In this document: positions 5,814-24,086 of the stretch, piece after piece
Layout of the letters: every line of letters starts with the position of its first letter
Numbering within the stretch: the first letter of the stretch is position 1
Source: a virus
DNA: 36,307 nucleotides
Virus record (IMG/VR): IMGVR_UViG_3300036780_000019
Location: 1 to 36,307 of that record
Reading direction: 5' to 3' (one strand)
Translations under genes and position numbers: made by a program
Notes under the pieces: model-generated
What the model was told of the DNA's origin: nothing
The model's database searches: none
The model's input: the letters and a program-made list of their open reading frames with translations, nothing else

Positions 5814-6877
5814 CGCTAAAGCTCCGGTCGGAGCAGAAAGCCCTCCACGCAGCAATCGCAGCCGTCGCCCATGCAGTGCCGTCCCGCCCGACGCACCCGA
5901 TCCTCGCCGGGATCCTCCTCGAAACGCTCGACGGCAAACTCACCGCGAGCAGCTTCGACTACGAACTCGCCGCAACGTCGAGCCTCAACGTCGACGCACC
6001 GGACACCCGCATCCTCGTCCCCGGCCGGTACCTCGTGGATCTCCTCGGCCGGATGCCAGCCGGCCCGATCGATTTGGTATCCGACGACCGGCACCTCACG
6101 ATCGCCGCGGGCCGCGCGAAAGCGACGATCCCGCTGCTACCCATCGACGACTACCCCGCACTGCCCGCTATGCCGCCGTTGCTCGGCACAGTTGACGGCG
6201 AAGCCCTCGCCGCTGCGTTGAAGCACGGCGGCCAAGCGGTCGACCCTGACGGGCTGGGCAGCATTTGCGGGGTCCGGCTCCAATCCGCCGACGGGACCCT
6301 CGAGGTCACCGCAACAGACCGGTACCGGATCCACACGTTCAGCTTGCCGTGGGCCGGCGAGGACGTTGCGGCGACGATCCCGCTGCCATCACTGAAATCT
6401 GCCGCAGCGTTGGACGACGGCCAGGTGCGAATCCACGGCGACGAATCGACAATCGCGCTTGCCACAGACACTCGCACGTCGAGCACGCGGCTGATCGCTG
6501 ACGAGTACGTGAAATGGCGTTCCCTGCTACCAACCCCGAAACATGAAGTCACACTCGACGCCGCGGCGCTCATCGACGCGTTGAAGCGCACCGCAGCCGT
6601 CAACGAACGCAGCCTGCCGGTCACCCTCGCATTCGTCGACGGCACGTTGCACGTCGACTCCGGCACCGCCGAAGGGCCGAGCACATCCGAAGACCTTGAG
6701 TACGAGGGGAGTCTTCGGCTGCCGCTGCGGTTCAACGCCGCCTATCTGCTTGACGTGCTCGCACCGATAGTCGGCCAGGTGCGGCTCGGAGTCACCGATG
6801 CCAGCAAAGTTGTGATGTTCACCGCCGAGCCCGCCGACACGTACCGGGGACTGCTTATGCCGGTGCGACCCGCATGA
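5810..6877 (+). CDS. dnaN: DNA polymerase III beta subunit (sliding clamp)
   Basis: The 355-residue protein matches the usual length and three-domain layout of bacterial beta clamps: residues about 1-120, 121-240 and 241-355. Recognisable signatures are AVAHAVPSRPTHPILAGILL near the N-terminus, DDYPALP before domain 2, LEVTATDRYRI in domain 2, and the C-terminal GLLMPVRPA matching the clamp MPxR end. A clamp tethers replicative polymerase to DNA. No phage DNA polymerase is visible in the window, so this clamp may load host polymerase preferentially onto phage DNA. Start is ATG 5810 (ATGA overlap); an upstream in-frame start at 5777 would overlap the previous gene. Confidence 0.92.
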   Translation: MTLKLRSEQKALHAAIAAVAHAVPSRPTHPILAGILLETLDGKLTASSFDYELAATSSLNVDAPDTRILVPGRYLVDLLGRMPAGPIDLVSDDRHLTIAAGRAKATIPLLPIDDYPALPAMPPLLGTVDGEALAAALKHGGQAVDPDGLGSICGVRLQSADGTLEVTATDRYRIHTFSLPWAGEDVAATIPLPSLKSAAALDDGQVRIHGDESTIALATDTRTSSTRLIADEYVKWRSLLPTPKHEVTLDAAALIDALKRTAAVNERSLPVTLAFVDGTLHVDSGTAEGPSTSEDLEYEGSLRLPLRFNAAYLLDVLAPIVGQVRLGVTDASKVVMFTAEPADTYRGLLMPVRPA

Positions 6878-8526
6878 GCGCCCTGGACATGACGGATCTG
6901 TTCTGTGGCGCCGGCGGATCCAGTAGTGGCGCGATTCAGATCCCGGGCGTGACCGTTCGGATCGCGGCGAACCATTGGCAGCTGGCCGTCGACACGCATC
7001 AGGAGAACCACCCGGACACCGACCACGACTGCGCCGACATCTCCCAAACCGACCCGCGCCGCTATCCGGCCACGGACATCCTGTGGGCATCGCCGGAATG
7101 CACGAACCACTCACAGGCGCGTGGCAAGCGACGTGCGAGCACCGAGCCGGATCTGTTCGGTGACGTGCTGCCCGATGCTGCAGCGGATCGTTCGCGCGCC
7201 ACGATGTGGGACGTCTGCCGGTTCGTCGAAGCGATGACGCTACGAGGTCACCCGTACAAGGGTTTCGTCGTGGAGAACGTCGTCGACGTCCGCTACTGGA
7301 TGTACTTCGAGCCGTGGAAGATGGCGCTGCGCACCGCTGGCTACTGCCTGCATTTCGTATACCTGAACTCCATGCACGCCCAAGCCGGTGGCTTGCCGGC
7401 GCCGCAGTCACGCGACCGGTTCTACTGCGTTGGGCACCTCAACGCCATCCGCTGCCCCGACCTGAACCGGTGGACTCGCCCGGTCGCTTGGTGCTCGGTG
7501 TGCGACGACGTTGTGACCGCGATGCAGGCGTGGAAGAAGCCCGACGGCCAGTGGGGCCGCTACCGGCAGCAGTACCTCTACCGGTGCCCGAAGGCCGCGT
7601 GCCGAAATGCTGTCGTCGAACCCGCTTGGCTGCCCGCCGCAGCGGCGATCGACTGGACGATGCGCGGCCAACGGATCGGTGACCGCAAGAAGCCACTCGC
7701 AGCCAAAACCATCGCCCGCATCGAAGCAGGCCTGCGCAAGTTCGCGCGACCGATCACCCTCGAAGCGGCTGGCAACACTTACGAGCGGCCAGGATCCGGC
7801 TACATCCGCGCGTGGCCCGTTGACCAGTCACTCACCACGCCGACGACAACGCTGACCAAAGCGGTCGCCGTGCATCCCTTCCTGACGATCCACCGAGGCG
7901 ACACCGGCGACGGCCGGCAGCGCACCGCTGACCTGAAAGACGCGCTCCCGACCGCGACCGCGTCAGGCAACGTGTTCGGCCTGTTGGTGCCAGCTGGTGG
8001 TACTTGGAACGACGACGCGACGTCGACGGACGATGTGCTGCGAACCCGCACCGCACGCGAAGCCGAAGCGTTGCTCGTGCCCGTCGAAGGCCGAGAGGGC
8101 AAGGCCGCGTCGCCTGCGAGCGCCCCGATGCGAACGCAGACCGCACGCAATGAGACGGCCTTCGTGGTGCCGCTGCGCCAAAACAACACCACCCTCACGT
8201 CCGCAGGGCATCAGTCGCTCGTGTCGTGGCAACACATGGTTGTCGACTACAACGGGCCCGCTCGATCACCTGGCGAACCTCTGGGCACGCAGACCACCGT
8301 CGAAGGCGAAGCACTCGCATCGCTGGCCGTCGACGTCGACGACTGCGAGTTCCGGATGCTCGAACCGCACGAGATCCAGGCCGCGATGGCATTTGCCCCC
8401 GAGTACGTGCTGCTCGGCAACCGCCGCGAACGTGTGCGTCTCGCGGGCAACGCCGTCACGCCACCAGCGGCGCGCGATCTGATCGGCACACTTGCTGAGG
8501 CCATCACTGGCGAGTTGGTCGCCTAG
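6874..8526 (+). CDS. C5-cytosine DNA methyltransferase with zinc ribbon and 30-residue repeats
   Basis: The 550-residue enzyme carries motif I DLFCGAGG (residues 8-15), a motif IV cysteine C76 in ASPECTNHS, motif VI ENV (134-136), motif VIII QSRDR (178-182) and motif X GNAVTPPAARD (from 525). It should methylate cytosine at C5 using S-adenosylmethionine, probably to protect phage DNA from restriction. The catalytic Cys is preceded by Glu rather than the usual Pro. C207, C210, C237 and C242 form a probable zinc ribbon. Residues about 352-432 contain three 30-residue repeats ending in VP, inside the target-recognition region. No partner restriction enzyme is next to it. Confidence 0.88.
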   Translation: MSALDMTDLFCGAGGSSSGAIQIPGVTVRIAANHWQLAVDTHQENHPDTDHDCADISQTDPRRYPATDILWASPECTNHSQARGKRRASTEPDLFGDVLPDAAADRSRATMWDVCRFVEAMTLRGHPYKGFVVENVVDVRYWMYFEPWKMALRTAGYCLHFVYLNSMHAQAGGLPAPQSRDRFYCVGHLNAIRCPDLNRWTRPVAWCSVCDDVVTAMQAWKKPDGQWGRYRQQYLYRCPKAACRNAVVEPAWLPAAAAIDWTMRGQRIGDRKKPLAAKTIARIEAGLRKFARPITLEAAGNTYERPGSGYIRAWPVDQSLTTPTTTLTKAVAVHPFLTIHRGDTGDGRQRTADLKDALPTATASGNVFGLLVPAGGTWNDDATSTDDVLRTRTAREAEALLVPVEGREGKAASPASAPMRTQTARNETAFVVPLRQNNTTLTSAGHQSLVSWQHMVVDYNGPARSPGEPLGTQTTVEGEALASLAVDVDDCEFRMLEPHEIQAAMAFAPEYVLLGNRRERVRLAGNAVTPPAARDLIGTLAEAITGELVA

Positions 8527-9353
8527 TGGCGCGCATACGCAGTGTGAAGCCGGAGTTTTGGGTCGACCGGAAACTAGCCCGGGCGACAACGCGTGATGCC
8601 CGGATGCTGTACATCGGCCTGTGGAACCTCGCTGATGAGCATGCGCGGTTGATCGGCGGCAGGCAGTACTTGAAGGGCCAGATCTTCCCGTACGAGCCGG
8701 ACCTCAACGACGACGCTGTTGCGCGTCTGCGCGAGGAGCTCGTGACCGTCGGCGTTGCTGTGAAGTACACGGTCGGCGGCGAGACGTATCTGTTCTTGCC
8801 GATGCTCTCGAAGCATCAGCGACTCGACCCGAGGGTTGCCAGTAAGCACCCCGAACCACCCGCACAGATTTATGCGGACGCCACGCGCATTTCTTCCGAC
8901 GAGTCCGAAGAAATCCAGACGGACCAACCGGAAGACGAGCCCGCAGACGCATCTGCGCAGGTCAGCGCCCCAACGACACTCGATCCGGATTTATCCGCGC
9001 CCGATCCGGATAAATCAGCGCTTCTTTATGTAGCAGGGAGCATGGAGCATGTAGCAGGGAGCATGGTTGGCCGACGCAAGCGCGGCACCACACTCCCAGA
9101 CGACTTCGCAGTAACCGACGGTATGCGAGCTTGGGCCGCTACCGAGATCCCGCTCGTCGATGCCGACTCGCAGACCGCGAAGTTCCGCGACTTCCACACC
9201 GCCAAAGGCTCGACGTTCAAAGACTGGACGGCTGCCTGGCGGACGTGGATGCGCAACGCGCAGAGCTACGCCGAACGCGACGGCCGGCAAGCCGCGCCGC
9301 AAACGAGGCCGCCGGTGTCGACGGACCTTGAGTGGATGCGGGGCGGAGCATGA
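8526..9353 (+). CDS. phage replication initiation / helicase-loading protein
   Basis: This 275-residue protein has the N-terminal winged-helix pattern of phage replication initiators: RIRSVKPEFWVDRKLA, then LYIGLWNLADEHARL, then KGQIFPYEPDL and MLSKHQRLDPRVASKHPEPP (residues 1-115). An acidic low-complexity linker (about 120-175) is followed by a C-terminal TFKDWTAAWRTWMRNA helix typical of DnaD-like or helicase-loader proteins. The GTG start overlaps the methyltransferase TAG by one base. The helicase follows directly, as in many phages. The linker DNA (8981-9070) holds inverted and tandem repeats that may be the origin. Confidence 0.75.
   Translation: MARIRSVKPEFWVDRKLARATTRDARMLYIGLWNLADEHARLIGGRQYLKGQIFPYEPDLNDDAVARLREELVTVGVAVKYTVGGETYLFLPMLSKHQRLDPRVASKHPEPPAQIYADATRISSDESEEIQTDQPEDEPADASAQVSAPTTLDPDLSAPDPDKSALLYVAGSMEHVAGSMVGRRKRGTTLPDDFAVTDGMRAWAATEIPLVDADSQTAKFRDFHTAKGSTFKDWTAAWRTWMRNAQSYAERDGRQAAPQTRPPVSTDLEWMRGGA
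8981..9011 (+). repeat. 10-base direct repeat pair plus inverted repeat
   Basis: The word cgatccggat occurs at 8981-8990 and again at 9002-9011, 21 bases apart. Overlapping it, gatttatccg (8988-8997) and cggataaatc (9007-9016) form a perfect 10-base inverted repeat with a 9-base loop. It lies in the linker-coding part of the replication initiator gene. Confidence 0.7.
9028..9066 (+). repeat. two tandem 18-base repeats with 21-base period
   Basis: The word atgtagcagggagcatgg occurs exactly at 9028-9045 and 9049-9066. In the protein it gives VAGSM twice. The 21-base period is the same as that of the direct repeat just upstream, so the cluster looks like iterons within the initiator gene. Confidence 0.75.
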
Positions 9354-15974: not shown

Positions 15975-16322
15975 ATGGGCCCGTTCATCGTTGCTGCGCT
16001 CGTAGGTCTCGCCGTTGGCGTCGTCTCAGCGTTCGTCTCCGACCGCAAACGCGTCTCATCGGAGAACAACATGCGGTTCGAATACAACCGCGAAGTCGAC
16101 CTGACAGCGAAGTACACGCGTGCTCGGACGCTCACCGACATGGCTGCAAACCTCGATTCACTGATCGGCATTTGTGAGCCAGCGGAGTCGCAAGGGCTGA
16201 AGTTGGCGTCGAAGGTCTGCCGCAACTGGGCCGGCCAAACGCTCGCGCCACCGTCCGTCACGGTCAATCTGACCGCAGACACATCGAAGTTCGATGACAA
16301 GCTCAACGGCGGTCTGCTGTGA
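15975..16322 (+). CDS. small membrane-anchored protein
   Basis: ATG 15975 follows a 36-base gap. Residues 3-21 (PFIVAALVGLAVGVVSAFV) form a membrane helix, followed by about 90 charged and helical residues that would lie in the cytoplasm. It ends in a GTGA overlap with the HslV-like gene, so the two are probably made together. Function unknown. Confidence 0.6.
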   Translation: MGPFIVAALVGLAVGVVSAFVSDRKRVSSENNMRFEYNREVDLTAKYTRARTLTDMAANLDSLIGICEPAESQGLKLASKVCRNWAGQTLAPPSVTVNLTADTSKFDDKLNGGLL

Positions 16323-16945
16323 CGTGCATCGTCGGTGTGGTCGATGGCGACCATGTGCTGATCGGCGGCGATTCGGCTGGCGTCGGCGGATGGGATCTGA
16401 CTGTTCGCTCCGACACGAAGGTCTTCCGCGTCGGCCCGTACGTCATGGGCTTCACCGCGTCGTTTCGCATGGGCCAACTGCTGCGCTACAGCCTCCGGCC
16501 GCCTGAGCCCAGCGGCTGGGACGTCGACAGGTTCATGGCAACCGCGTTCATCGACTCGGTACGGCAATGCCTCAAAGCTGGCGGATATGCCCGAGCGAAA
16601 GATGGCGGCGAGCAGGGCGGCACGTTCCTAGTCGCCATCGGTGGCCTGCTGTACGTGATCTACGAGGATTACCAGATCGGCCGCTCGGAGGATGGCTACA
16701 TCGCGGTCGGCTGCGGACGCGACTACGCACTTGGTGCGCTCCACGCGACGACGATCCCTCGCACCGAAGCGCATACACGTATCGAAATCGCGCTAGAGGC
16801 CGCCGCGCACCACTCGGCCGGCGTCTCTGGCCCGTTCACGATCATGTCAACACCCAAGCCAGAAGCTGAGCCGGTATATCGGCCGATCGCGCCGTTCCTC
16901 GGCATCCAGACGGTCACGCGCGCTCAGCTTGGCCTCGACAGGTGA
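16319..16945 (+). CDS. HslV/proteasome-like threonine peptidase (Ntn hydrolase)
   Basis: The 208-residue protein begins Met-Thr. If Met is removed, Thr1, Asp17 (in GGDSAG) and Lys33 (in TKVF) fall exactly at the proteasome/HslV catalytic positions. The first 18 residues align with HslV, including the shared H11-V12 and I14 and the GD at 16-17. A later IAVGCGRDYALGAL matches the family AIGSG-x-x-A motif with Cys for Ser. Family members are self-assembling peptidases fed by an ATPase (HslU or Mpa). No such ATPase is in the window. Actinobacteria usually have a 20S proteasome rather than HslV. It may degrade host factors or process phage proteins; both are inference. GTG start in GTGA. Confidence 0.75.
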   Translation: MTCIVGVVDGDHVLIGGDSAGVGGWDLTVRSDTKVFRVGPYVMGFTASFRMGQLLRYSLRPPEPSGWDVDRFMATAFIDSVRQCLKAGGYARAKDGGEQGGTFLVAIGGLLYVIYEDYQIGRSEDGYIAVGCGRDYALGALHATTIPRTEAHTRIEIALEAAAHHSAGVSGPFTIMSTPKPEAEPVYRPIAPFLGIQTVTRAQLGLDR

Positions 16946-18072
16946 CCGAGGAGAAATGGAGCTGTCCCGGACCTCACGATGCCGATCAGCGGCCCGAGAC
17001 GGATCAGCCGCTGTGCGGCGACTGCCAATACGCCCTGCATTCGGCATTGGGCGATTTGCCGACCCTGTATGCCCGCCTGTGGCTCGCTTTGCAGCCCGGC
17101 ATGCGACCGGCACCGCCCGGCAATCAGGGTGGCCGCGTCAAACAGACCCACGCCCCTTTGCAGCTGGATGGTGGCGCGGACGCGATGATGCGCCGCTGCG
17201 TCGACATCCTCGGCTGCTGGATGGACGTCGTCACCGCCGCACAGCAACTAGCGCCCGCCCAGAGACGCTCACCTAGAACACTCAGAGTCGCCACCCGCCT
17301 GCGGCTAGTCGTCAAACAGTCGGATCTGCCCGCGCTACCGGATGAGACGGAGCGCGGCGAAACCGTCGAAATTGAGGCACATCAAGGCGTCGAAGCGATC
17401 GACCGACCCATCGACTCGGCCACCGGCTACCTGATCTCCCATTCGTGCGCCGTCCTGCGCACCCACCTGCAGACCCTGATCCGGCTACCCGCGACACCGG
17501 TGATGCGCCGGCGGCAAATCTCCGAACTGGCCGCCCTGACCGACGAAGCCCTCGGATCTTTGGTCACAACGGTCAACGACGACGAATGCCTCCACCTCCT
17601 CGACCTCACCGGTGTCGACGCAGCGAAAGAGCTCCTCGACCTGCGCCGCACAATCCGCCGATTCTTGGGCGATACCCGAGGCTGCCGCGTCGGCGTCGTC
17701 CCATGCCCCGATGAGGAATGCCGCGGCGCCCTGGTCATGTGGGACGGCGACGAACACGTGGAGTGCGTCGGCTGCAGACGTACTTGGACGCCCGCCGATT
17801 ACGAGCGACTGATTTTGGTCACCGCTGACGAAGCCCGCGCATCCGGACGTTGGGAAGGCACCAAAGCCGCCGAACAACTCGTCACCCAAGCCCGCGCAGC
17901 CGAATTGGCCGCCGTCGACCCGGCGACGGTCCGCACATGGGTCCACCGCAACCTCCTCACCCAAGCCGGACGCGACGGCTACGGCAGAGCCACATTCCGC
18001 CTCGGCGACGTGTTGGCGGTCGCGAAATCGACCTCCGACGAGCCACGCGGCAGACGCCGAAAACGGACATAA
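16942..18072 (+). CDS. zinc-ribbon and helix-turn-helix DNA-binding protein
   Basis: The 376-residue protein has an N-terminal C8/H12/C25/C28 motif, a long helical middle, a zinc ribbon C255-x4-C260 ... C275-x2-C278, and a C-terminal helix-turn-helix at about 317-362 (RAAELAAVDPATVRTWVHRN, then FRLGDVLAVA) of the MerR/excisionase kind. The tail is basic (RGRRRKRT). It is the last gene before the noncoding gap and terminator that separate early and late regions, so it could control late transcription; that is inferred from position. GTG start in GTGA. Confidence 0.72.
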   Translation: MTEEKWSCPGPHDADQRPETDQPLCGDCQYALHSALGDLPTLYARLWLALQPGMRPAPPGNQGGRVKQTHAPLQLDGGADAMMRRCVDILGCWMDVVTAAQQLAPAQRRSPRTLRVATRLRLVVKQSDLPALPDETERGETVEIEAHQGVEAIDRPIDSATGYLISHSCAVLRTHLQTLIRLPATPVMRRRQISELAALTDEALGSLVTTVNDDECLHLLDLTGVDAAKELLDLRRTIRRFLGDTRGCRVGVVPCPDEECRGALVMWDGDEHVECVGCRRTWTPADYERLILVTADEARASGRWEGTKAAEQLVTQARAAELAAVDPATVRTWVHRNLLTQAGRDGYGRATFRLGDVLAVAKSTSDEPRGRRRKRT

Positions 18073-18744: not shown

Positions 18745-19047
18745 GTGCCATGGCGACCCGGCAAGACAGCCGCCCGAGGCTACGGCTACGCCCACCAGCA
18801 GGAACGCCGCCGACTGCGCCCCATCGTCGAAGCAGGCAACGCCTACTGCGCACAACCCCGCTGCCTCTTCCCATCACGCTGGATTCAACCCGGAACCCCC
18901 TGGGATGTAGGCCACAACGATGACCGCACCGCACGCATCGGCCCCTGCCACCGCCCCTGCAACCAACAAGCGGGCGCCTCGAAAGGTGGCCGCGTCACAG
19001 CAGGGCGCAACCTCCGCCCCAAGCCATGGCGCAGCAGAGCCTGGTAA
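18745..19047 (+). CDS. HNH endonuclease next to terminase
   Basis: The 100-residue protein starts at GTG 18745. It has RGYGYAHQQERRRLRPIVEAG, a CAQPRC pair, WDVGHNDDR with the first His, and IGPCHRPCNQQAGASKGG with Cys, His and Asn, together an HNH/ββα-metal site. HNH enzymes beside the terminase, such as HK97 gp74, assist terminase in cleaving at cos. The position directly before the terminase genes and a candidate cos region fits this role. Confidence 0.8.
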   Translation: MPWRPGKTAARGYGYAHQQERRRLRPIVEAGNAYCAQPRCLFPSRWIQPGTPWDVGHNDDRTARIGPCHRPCNQQAGASKGGRVTAGRNLRPKPWRSRAW

Positions 19048-19129
19048 GGCGGGGGGTGGGGTAGACCCACAAAACGCGCAAAACACTGACCCGCCAGTCA
19101 GCAAAAATATCCCCCCGAATGGCGCTCGG
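19048..19129. other. candidate cos region
   Basis: This 82-base stretch between the HNH stop and the likely TerS start has no good coding frame. It holds a G-run (six Gs, 19051-19056) and its mirror C-run (19111-19116), and a ctgac/gtcag hairpin at 19086-19101. Location next to HNH and terminase genes is where many cos phages carry their packaging site. The overhang cannot be read from this. Confidence 0.4.
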
Positions 19130-19549
19130 ATGGCCGAGTCGGTCGTTCGGGCGGTTCCCGAGGGCCTGTCTGAGGGTGGTTTGGCACTCTGGTCGGCGTT
19201 CGCGGCCGCGACGATGCCGGCCGCTCAGGTGGCACTGCTGTTGGAGGCGTGCCGCGCGAAGGATCGGCTCGACAAGCTCGATTTGATCTTGCGCGGCGAG
19301 GTCGATACGTGGGCCCGGCTGGTCCATCGGACGCTCACCGAGGACTACGAGCTCCACATCGACGATGCGCTGGTGAAGGCCAACGCGACGGCGAGTTCCC
19401 TGCGGCAGTTGCTCGCCGCGCTCCCTGCTGATGCCCAGGCGAAACCGCAGGTGAAGAGTGCGCTCGACGAGCTCAGGGACCGCCGCGCTACTCGGGGTGC
19501 AAACGCCACGCGTGCGCCTCGTGCCCCGCGCGCGACTAAGCGAAGCTGA
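19130..19549 (+). CDS. terS: terminase small subunit
   Basis: The 139-residue protein has VPEGLSEGGLALWSAFAAAT, then QVALLLEACRAKDRLDKLD, then a long helix and a basic Arg/Ala-rich tail (RAPRAPRATKR). This is the pattern of P27-like small terminase subunits, which bind the packaging site and recruit the large subunit. An open frame reaches back to 18920, but it overlaps the HNH gene and has poor coding character, so ATG 19130 was chosen. No strong ribosome site is visible. It overlaps the large subunit by 53 bases. Confidence 0.72.
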   Translation: MAESVVRAVPEGLSEGGLALWSAFAAATMPAAQVALLLEACRAKDRLDKLDLILRGEVDTWARLVHRTLTEDYELHIDDALVKANATASSLRQLLAALPADAQAKPQVKSALDELRDRRATRGANATRAPRAPRATKRS

Positions 19550-21011
19550 CGACGCAGTCTTTCTGAGCGCCGCATATGGCCTCGTGCCGGACGACTGGCA
19601 AGAGGACGTGCTCGACGGCTGGCTCGGCCTTCGTCCGAACGGGCATTGGGCGTCGCCGCGGTGTGGTCTTGCGGTGCCGCGGCAGAACGGCAAGAACGCG
19701 GTCCTCGAGATCCGCGAGCTTTACGGCATGGTGCAACTCGGGGAGAAGTTCCTCCACACCGCCCACGAAGTGAAGACCGCGCGGAAGGCGTTCACGCGGC
19801 TGTTGCATTTCTTCGACAACGAGCGCAAGTTCCCGGAACTGCACGATCTGGTGCTCAGCATTCGGCGGACGAACGGCCAGGAAGCAATCTTCCTGGAAAA
19901 CGGCGCGTCGGTGGAGTTCGTCGCACGCTCGAAAGGCTCCGGCCGTGGATTCACCGTCGACGTGCTTGTCCTCGACGAGGCGCAAGACCTGTCGTTCGAC
20001 ACGCACGCCGCGTTGCGGCCGACGATCTCCGCCGCGCCGCTCGGGAACCCGCAGGAAATCATGACCGGCACCCCGCCGTCGCCGACGATGAACGGCGAAG
20101 TGTGGACGCGGATGCGCAAGGCGGGCAACGAAGGCAAGGACCCGCGCCTGTGTTGGCATGAGTGGTCGGTCGTGGCATCGAAAGACGGCCATGTTGACTA
20201 CGACGACCGCGCGAACTGGGCGAAAGCGAACCCGGCATTGGGTCGGCGGCTGTCGTATGACGCCACGATGGATGAGCGGGCTGCGATGGACGACACCACG
20301 TTCGGCCGGGAACGCCTCGGGATCTGGGATGACGGGCCCGAGGGCGATCAGTCCGACCTGGACCTGTCCGGATGGCCCGGCCTTGAGGATACTGAGTCGA
20401 CCCTCGCGAGCGTGGCCGCATTCGCCGTCGAGGTGAGTATCGACCGGGCATGGAGCTCAGTTGCTGCCGCAGGCCCGTCGTCGGGCGACCGGCTGCACCT
20501 CGAGATCGTCGAGCACCTGCCAGGTACGGCGTGGATCGTCGCCCGCTGCGTCGAGTTGAACACCGCGCATGGTCCGGCGGTGTTCGTCGTCGACTCGGTC
20601 GGGCCGGCCGCTTCACTGATCCCCGACCTCGAGGCCGCTGGGCTGTCCGTGTATGCGACGACAACCGATGACGTCGCGACCGCAACCGCGGATCTGATCG
20701 ACGGCATCGCGCAGCGGCTGTTCGTTCACGGCCCGCAGGTCGAGGTTGATGCGGCGATCGCCGTCGCGCGGAAACGGTCCATGGGGGACGGCCGGTTCAC
20801 GTTCGGCCGTGCGAAGTCCGGCGGCGACGTTTCACCGCTCGTCGCGATCACCTTGGCGGCATGGCGCGCCAGCGAGCAGACCGCATACGCGCACGTCATG
20901 TTCCCCGACGATCCCGAACCGCCTGCCGATGGCGTCCAGCGCGGCCCGGGTGGCGCGCGGATACTCAGCCAAGCCGAAACGACGACGGTCCGCTACGGCC
21001 CACCAACGTAG
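19497..21011 (+). CDS. terL: terminase large subunit
   Basis: The 504-residue protein has a Walker A-like PRQNGKN at 61-67, Walker B VDVLVLDEAQDL with D160 and E161, and a coupling motif TGTPPS. The C-terminal nuclease domain includes FVVDSVGP. It packages DNA into the prohead using ATP and cuts concatemers. GTG 19497 is the likely start (frame from 19458 lies within terS). The last residues LSQAETTTVRYG are nearly identical to a segment of the 62-residue protein at 26871-27059. Length is normal for the family. Confidence 0.92.
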   Translation: MQTPRVRLVPRARLSEADDAVFLSAAYGLVPDDWQEDVLDGWLGLRPNGHWASPRCGLAVPRQNGKNAVLEIRELYGMVQLGEKFLHTAHEVKTARKAFTRLLHFFDNERKFPELHDLVLSIRRTNGQEAIFLENGASVEFVARSKGSGRGFTVDVLVLDEAQDLSFDTHAALRPTISAAPLGNPQEIMTGTPPSPTMNGEVWTRMRKAGNEGKDPRLCWHEWSVVASKDGHVDYDDRANWAKANPALGRRLSYDATMDERAAMDDTTFGRERLGIWDDGPEGDQSDLDLSGWPGLEDTESTLASVAAFAVEVSIDRAWSSVAAAGPSSGDRLHLEIVEHLPGTAWIVARCVELNTAHGPAVFVVDSVGPAASLIPDLEAAGLSVYATTTDDVATATADLIDGIAQRLFVHGPQVEVDAAIAVARKRSMGDGRFTFGRAKSGGDVSPLVAITLAAWRASEQTAYAHVMFPDDPEPPADGVQRGPGGARILSQAETTTVRYGPPT

Positions 21012-22551: not shown

Positions 22552-22619
22552 GCAATCCCTTCATCCTCAGCCGTTCGCGTCATGCGACCGGTCCTTTCCG
22601 TATGGCCGGAGGCAACCGC

Positions 22620-24086
22620 ATGGACCCGTTGAAGAAGGCGATCAAGGCGGCCAGCCTCGCCGGGACGGCTGAGCGTGCTGCGGTGATCGTCGAGGCGCGG
22701 GAGGCGAACCTTGCCGCGTTGATCCCCGCCGACTGGCAGGACGACGGAGCGCTCACCGTGCACCCCCGATTCTCGGAGCGCGCGGATGGTCGCACGTACG
22801 ACGACACCCGGCAGCTGGTGCAGGCAGCGATCTACGACACGCTGCCGCGCACCGTTGCCGAGGACTGCTACGTGTGCATCGTCGACATGACCGACGACTG
22901 GGCCGTCTACCAGTTGGACTGGTGCGGGGATCTGCTGCAGGTCAACTACGCGATCGACGCCGAGGGGGCCGTGACTCTCGAGCCTGCCGTGACGGTCGCC
23001 GAGACGACGACGTACACGCCGATCGAGGCGAAGGCGACCGCGCTCGTGAAGGCGCAGCCTCGCTCGGTCGCACTGCCGCGGGTCAAGGAATGGTGCTGGC
23101 CGCTCGACGCTAGCCCGCAGATCCGCATGGACGCTACCGAGGATGGCGCGCCGGCGCAGGTCGCGAACTTCCTCGGCTGGGCGTCGACGACGGACAGTGG
23201 CTACGACGTTCACGACTGGCTCGGCACCTACGTCGAGACGATCCGGTCGGGTGCGTTCGCGAAGAGCCTGCGCGAGACCCCGAACGTGATGATGTTCTTC
23301 GACCACGACGGCGTGCCGCTGGCTTCGACCGGCGCGGAAACGTCGCGGCTGTCGGAGGACAAGCAGGGTTTGCGCAACGAGGCAGATTGGGATCTGCGGT
23401 CGCCGTACAGCAACGGCATCGCGATCGCGGTGCAGCGCGGCGACCTGTCGAAGATGTCGTTCAGCTTCGCTGCGATGCAAGACGACTGGACGGCCGACTA
23501 TTCGGCGCGCACCGTCACCGAGCTCCGGCTCTACGACACGTCGGTCGTCAGCTTCCCCGCCAATCCGGAAACGTCGGCGATGCTGCGCAGTGAGATGCGC
23601 AGCGCGCTCGGCCGTGAAGGCATGGCGTTGATGGTCGCGACCCGCAGCATTACCGACGTGATGGCAGAAGTTCGCACAGGGCAGCTGCCGGATTCGGCCG
23701 AGCCGATCTTCGAGCAGTCCCTTACTGCGCTACTTGCGGCCGATGACCATGTGGCGAAGGTGCTTGGCCCGTACTGCCGTGCCCGTACCCGCGCCGTGGA
23801 GTTGGCGATCCTGTCAGCACGCGAAGGCAAAACGTTGTCGGGTGCGAACGAAAAGTTGCTCCGGCAGGCGCTCGCATCGTTGACCGATGCTGGCGAGTCG
23901 GTCACCGAAGTCCTCGGCGACCCGGAGGTCGCAGACGCCACGCCCGCCGATCCGCCCCAGTCGGGCGACACATCGAACCCGACAGCACCCGACGACGGTG
24001 CCGGCGCACGTGCGCTCGAGATCGAGCGTGAGCGCGCGCGTGTGCAACTCGAACTTTTGCGACGCAAGCGTCACCGCGCCGCCTGA
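22620..24086 (+). CDS. prohead protease, HK97 family, with N-terminal extension
   Basis: The 488-residue protein starts at ATG 22620 with a ggagg site; an in-frame ATG at 22602 is less likely. The protease core lies at about 185-330: AFAKSLRETPNVMMFFDHDG with catalytic His229, SKMSFSF around 278-283, and LYDTSVVSFPANP with the Ser region near 308-311. The first 150 residues form an extra domain (IPADWQDDGALTVHPRFSER, then DWAVYQLDWCGDLLQ). The last 100 residues include a helical tail with many Arg. It cleaves the capsid delta domain during maturation. Confidence 0.85.
   Translation: MDPLKKAIKAASLAGTAERAAVIVEAREANLAALIPADWQDDGALTVHPRFSERADGRTYDDTRQLVQAAIYDTLPRTVAEDCYVCIVDMTDDWAVYQLDWCGDLLQVNYAIDAEGAVTLEPAVTVAETTTYTPIEAKATALVKAQPRSVALPRVKEWCWPLDASPQIRMDATEDGAPAQVANFLGWASTTDSGYDVHDWLGTYVETIRSGAFAKSLRETPNVMMFFDHDGVPLASTGAETSRLSEDKQGLRNEADWDLRSPYSNGIAIAVQRGDLSKMSFSFAAMQDDWTADYSARTVTELRLYDTSVVSFPANPETSAMLRSEMRSALGREGMALMVATRSITDVMAEVRTGQLPDSAEPIFEQSLTALLAADDHVAKVLGPYCRARTRAVELAILSAREGKTLSGANEKLLRQALASLTDAGESVTEVLGDPEVADATPADPPQSGDTSNPTAPDDGAGARALEIERERARVQLELLRRKRHRAA

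Follow-up and report, generated by a model that had tools for sequence, protein, structure and literature searches.

A phage-encoded proteasome homologue of the AAH family in an actinobacterial host context

Among the bacterial and phage proteasome homologues described by Fuchs, Alva and Lupas in 2021 (PMC8665760), AAH, the alpha-proteobacterial/actinobacterial proteasome homologue, belongs to group I, takes its name from the two taxa in which it occurs and is carried by many phages as well. PPH, the homologue of phages and their hosts, is shorter, with about 140 residues, and lacks helix H2. That survey reported no Actinobacteria-specific phage with an AAH, detected no transmission by phages within the phylum, and found no informative genomic context for the homologues (PMC8665760). 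In BPH, the related betaproteobacterial proteasome homologue, which forms a tetradecameric double ring, a classical mechanism was inferred from epoxomicin binding, no unfoldase was found, and the enzyme was inactive on model substrates; attack by Thr1, assisted by Lys33 and Asp17, is established in these relatives (PMC5777263). Our literature search returned neither an assayed AAH nor a reported function for phage proteasome homologues. We know of no AAH that has been assayed. The gene described here is a further member of a family already known but uncharacterised, in the host context that its describers sought without success.

The window, which is the whole 36.3 kb stretch of an IMG/VR virus record that was analysed, is an actinophage fragment or genome, and the record may be incomplete. 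The actinobacterial host context of the original prediction is upheld by a WhiB-family regulator, an actinobacterial phage marker (12340–12828, + strand; PF02467, 2.7e-10), and by an actinophage-type terminase large subunit (19458–21011, +; phrog_9, 3e-63) that is matched best by phages of Rhodococcus, Bifidobacterium and Gordonia. The terminase small subunit (18920–19549, +; phrog_1496, 8e-27), a capsid gene, a DnaB-like helicase, a sliding clamp and recombination genes are also encoded, together with an S78 prohead protease (22602–24086, +; PF04586, 1.6e-25) that constitutes a separate head-maturation protease. Other genes include a C-5 cytosine DNA methylase (6874–8526; PF00145, 3.7e-21) and, at the left edge of the record, a DUF6745 protein (39–647; 4.9e-27). 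The putative threonine hydrolase gene occupies 16319–16945 on the + strand, exactly as first delimited, with a GTG start and 208 encoded residues. Its N-terminus reads (M)TCIVG, and translation places the predicted nucleophile Thr1 (codon ACG, 16322–16324), Asp17 (16370–16372) and Lys33 (16418–16420; all + strand and mature numbering) at the proteasome positions, with H11-V12, I14 and G16-D17 where they had been located before. No propeptide is present, the start being aligned with those of all relatives, which open with M-T. The C-terminal tail (residues 181–208; 16859–16942, +) is predicted with low confidence and is missing from most relatives; several Streptomyces copies have a tail about as long.

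The assignment of this protein relies on profile searches, structure prediction and taxonomic distribution taken together. Pfam PF00227 scored 18.4 bits, under its threshold of 22.4, and where Pfam alone stayed sub-threshold the match to phrog_1040 (‘peptidase HslV family’, E=2e-24) is, at the level of sequence, decisive for the family. Other phages carry the gene too, as 211 phage records match the protein by tblastn. AlphaFold2, with 12 sequences in the alignment, returned an Ntn-hydrolase fold (pLDDT 85, pTM 0.79), as the original prediction would have it, with helices H1–H4 at 49–57, 69–87, 134–143 and 151–165 of the monomer, a strand at 173–177 followed by a disordered tail, no insertions, no S12/H5, and strands and helices in the expected order. 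The best solved structures in Foldseek were those of BPH (5ovs, 5ovt and 5ovu; E 9e-11 to 5e-10), followed by HslV and then by 20S beta subunits, and a family profile searched against the PDB likewise gave BPH 5ovu (3e-8) and HslV (3e-6), with very low similarity to PrcB. The predicted fold and the phage gene context thereby bear out a phage-encoded threonine enzyme of proteasome fold. Because the phrog_1040 match, the 211 phage records, the invariance of Thr1, Asp17 and Lys33 among relatives and the predicted fold agree, we regard the proteasome-like signature of this reading frame as no chance pattern. The protein almost certainly belongs to the AAH family, which corresponds to phrog_1040 in phage annotation; the label was set by the published description, by fold and by distribution. 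It follows from the presence of H2, the lack of a propeptide and of extra C-terminal elements, and the distribution of the genome relatives, which are mainly alphaproteobacterial and actinobacterial (including Streptomyces, Frankia, Actinomadura, Mycolicibacterium, Devosia, Bradyrhizobium and Mesorhizobium) with others in Bacillota and Bacteroidota. The catalytic set, the compact group I fold, the absent propeptide and the taxon distribution all agree with AAH. Rooting a tree with BPH and HslV failed on very long branches; in the unrooted tree the window groups with L002, L003, L049, L066, L073 and Frankia/Pseudofrankia copies, with support of 91/92 from a bootstrap that had not settled.

Relatives were drawn from IMG/VR, from bacterial genomes (one per species) and from annotated phages. 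Thr1, Asp17 and Lys33 are invariant in the 76 aligned relatives (76/76 each), a set in which Thr1 is partly conditioned, one of its two search patterns having held MTCIVG, and Asp17 and Lys33 are unconditioned. Neither outcome that the original prediction named as refuting it, a fold other than an Ntn hydrolase or homologues that vary at these three residues, was seen. Lys33 is also kept in 139 of 139 sequences of a larger set, for which residue counts are partly conditioned by selection on a start motif with Thr and an early Asp, and the 76-relative alignment is the fairer test. Many family members begin with MTV or MTA rather than MTC; among the Streptomyces copies (within L015–L067), most start with MTV, and their neighbours are varied. 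The GCG motif at the proteasome Ser129-type site (mature 130–132; 16709–16717, +) was correctly seen to stand in place of GSG, but it is no peculiarity of this protein: with Cys in 61 and Ser in 13 of the 76 relatives, it is a normal family trait. The oxyanion strand, which follows the first sheet, reads T-[ST]-S-F-R in AAH, and mature position 47 is Ser in 74 of the 76 relatives; by alignment, the oxyanion Gly of BPH falls one position earlier, where Gly occurs in 11/76. Most AAH sequences appear to carry Ser or Thr at the oxyanion Gly47 position, a change at the level of the family that, judged from the alignments, sets its active site apart. Because of this change and the usual Cys at the Ser129 site, AAH chemistry may be different. 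Clustered AAH paralogues with catalytic residues kept occur on two phage contigs, L010 (8001–8549, 8578–9123 and 11097–11765) and L009 (3243–3911 and 4364–4948), and could form hetero-oligomeric rings. In Moorella phage MTATph1 (OR602862; L074, 6001–6558), a TTG at 6001 gives (M)TCIAG, and the annotated HslV-family protein lacks the catalytic Thr1 because its deposited CDS starts downstream, at 6043.

AAH-bearing phages of Actinobacteria exist, as seen in the window and in prophages of Mycolicibacterium, Streptomyces and Aeromicrobium, and this fills the gap reported by the founding survey of 2021. Genes for terminase, portal, S78 and capsid stand next to AAH in Streptomyces sp. SID3212 (L027), Streptomyces sp. 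STR69 (L033) and Mycolicibacterium palauense (L049), and the copy in the Aeromicrobium sp. Root495 prophage (L044) is identical in sequence to that of an IMG/VR record (L005). Sequenced isolates with AAH in prophages are M. palauense, Aeromicrobium sp. Root495 and Devosia sp. Root436. Phages have plausibly moved AAH within Actinobacteria, because of two Streptomyces prophage copies, one lies beside the root of the Streptomyces AAH clade and the other inside it. An AAH relative was found in 35 of 395 sampled actinomycete genomes (about 9%). No conserved chromosomal neighbour of the Streptomyces copies stood out, and the inspected AAH loci outside prophages had no phage neighbours. A regular-expression search for WhiB, which is insensitive, yielded one further actinophage contig (L096).

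We lean, with slightly better than an even chance, towards an unfoldase-independent, self-compartmentalising threonine peptidase of an actinobacterial tailed phage. The gene product, a proteasome homologue of AAH type (group I, BPH-like), would probably lose its initiator Met to the host methionine aminopeptidase, exposing Thr1 as a nucleophile activated by Lys33 and Asp17; the subunits would probably form a homo-oligomeric chamber of stacked rings and, in the course of infection, cut polypeptides that are unfolded or specifically recognised, with no AAA+ unfoldase dedicated to the task. For the window protein itself, we infer maturation, oligomeric state, proteolysis, substrates and role in infection. 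The inactivity of BPH on model substrates, the active-site changes, the missing acidic pore loop and the possible incompleteness of the window all weaken this mechanism. As first noted, an ATPase partner is not visible: no unfoldase or HslU occurs among the scanned ORFs of the window, where a DnaB-like helicase is the sole ATPase found, in a record that may be a fragment, so that an unfoldase may be encoded elsewhere in the phage. The supposed need for HslU is disfavoured. In each of the seven sampled actinobacterial carriers of AAH, 20S PrcB passes its curated cut-off and HslU does not pass its own, with partial, ClpX-type matches only; the alphaproteobacterial carrier Devosia is HslU positive. 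HslU dependence is thus very unlikely in actinobacterial carriers, and because these seven lack HslU over the cut-off, AAH cannot generally rely on it.

The main rival is a narrow-specificity Ntn enzyme, such as a connectase-like ligase, a processing enzyme or an amidohydrolase, rather than a degradative protease. Connectase, a monomeric ligase, is itself a member of the proteasome-like family (PMC8665760), BPH is inactive on general substrates (PMC5777263), and the changes specific to AAH surround the active site (T-[ST]-S-F-R at the oxyanion strand and Cys at the Ser129 site), which fits such a specialisation. However, all four ring-contact helices are predicted in the window protein, whereas connectase lacks H1–H2 and has an insertion that is missing here (PMC8665760), so that we consider this reading possible but unlikely.

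A dedicated role in head assembly is doubtful, although gene order provides a concrete lead on AAH function. In this reading AAH would be co-expressed in unrelated phages with the terminase, portal and capsid genes and, next to the S78 protease, would clear or process scaffold and structural proteins that are misassembled or aborted. In many phage and prophage loci the gene adjoins the head module or sits within it, on the strand of that module: the order is S78–AAH–MCP with a 4-base overlap in L003, TerL–AAH–portal in L149 and L153, and MCP–AAH in L100, and AAH stands 0.7–3 kb before TerL in L004/L042, L007, L027, L033, L048, L049 and the window. Across 40 viral contigs of 20–65 kb, in a census of AAH-centred loci that holds some near-duplicate contigs and used queries of HK97-like types only, a recognised head gene occurred in the fetched stretch of 14 and within 3 kb in 11, and 31 of 31 recognised head genes were on the AAH strand. 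We regard this recurrent position beside or within head and packaging genes as a suggestive, new but weak functional clue, with no measured enrichment. The exact position varies, however; 26 of the 40 contigs have no recognised head gene nearby (with detection limited to HK97-like types), and several larger phages place AAH among other genes, some of them metabolic. The region ahead of TerL often carries cargo genes. The share of actinomycete genomes with AAH and the inspected non-prophage loci also speak against this reading. So does the S78 protease of the window, a prohead protease of the conventional kind, for which reason we rejected its AAH as the head-maturation protease; the AAH protein itself gave no Peptidase_S78 match. 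The immediate neighbours of the gene add little. The upstream ORF (15975–16322, +; 115 residues, hydrophobic N-terminus) does overlap the AAH start by 4 bases (GTGA), but its proposed part as a membrane anchor that localises the enzyme lacks comparative support: no homologue was found among phage records at E values of up to 1, with IMG/VR patterns or at about 140 AAH loci, and with none beside any AAH relative it was dropped as functional evidence. The downstream ORF (16942–18072, +; 376 residues), an HTH/MerR-like DNA-binding protein with a second 4-base overlap at the AAH stop, has no counterpart beside the other AAH genes examined.

HslV-like action with a borrowed host AAA+ partner, Mpa/ARC or ClpX, is quite improbable. 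The HslV-related fold and the 20S proteasome and ClpX-like ATPases of actinobacterial carriers would favour it, but these carriers lack HslU over the cut-off (0/7), the protein scores below the HslV models, and AAH has no alpha ring, the structure on which the Mpa C-terminus docks in the 20S particle. Perturbation of the host 20S, by co-assembly with PrcB or as a decoy, is hardly credible despite the presence of PrcB in host relatives, since the catalytic residues are invariant rather than decayed, similarity to PrcB is very low, and the AAH family extends to Alphaproteobacteria, Bacillota and Bacteroidota, which generally lack the 20S.

Returning to the preferred unfoldase-independent peptidase, comparison with known systems places the window protein nearest to AAH. 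Like PPH, it is a phage-encoded group I proteasome homologue, but PPH was rejected on length (208 residues against about 140) and on the predicted H2 at 69–87. With HslV (ClpQ) it shares the Ntn fold, Thr1/Asp17/Lys33 and GD at 16–17, and the description of the enzyme as HslV-like holds for its related fold and catalytic set; as a family assignment it gives way to AAH, nearer BPH than HslV, since the score of 12.7 bits against NF003964 is far under the equivalog cut-off of 137 and the actinobacterial carriers have no HslU partner. The HslV-annotated WJZ48484.1 of DSL-LC01 (OQ999401; L073), a metagenome-assembled Actinomycetia phage with a predicted actinobacterial host, also has a WhiB neighbour, yet it is only 34% identical, sits on a very long branch, and is of uncertain placement within group I. 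In that contig, the HslV-like gene, divergent from AAH, is followed directly by the WhiB gene (8001–8954); in the jumbo Escherichia phage 121Q (L078, 3065–5572), genes for a ClpP-like protease, an HslV-like protein and a Sir2-like protein stand together. By sequence profile and by fold alike, no solved structure comes closer than BPH (5ovs, 5ovt, 5ovu); 5ovu also starts with Thr-Cys, and no unfoldase is known for either BPH or AAH. The resemblance is nonetheless remote, at about 19–25% identity: the acidic, elongated pore loop of BPH is missing, the corresponding region (88–101, GGYARAKDGGEQGG) being of mixed charge, the Ser129-type site is Cys, and the oxyanion Gly is not retained. With published AAH, the window protein shares the compact group I architecture, Thr1/Asp17/Lys33, H1–H4, the absence of a propeptide and carriage by phages, and it differs in an extra C-terminal tail of about 28 residues and in its actinophage context, unseen in the 2021 survey.
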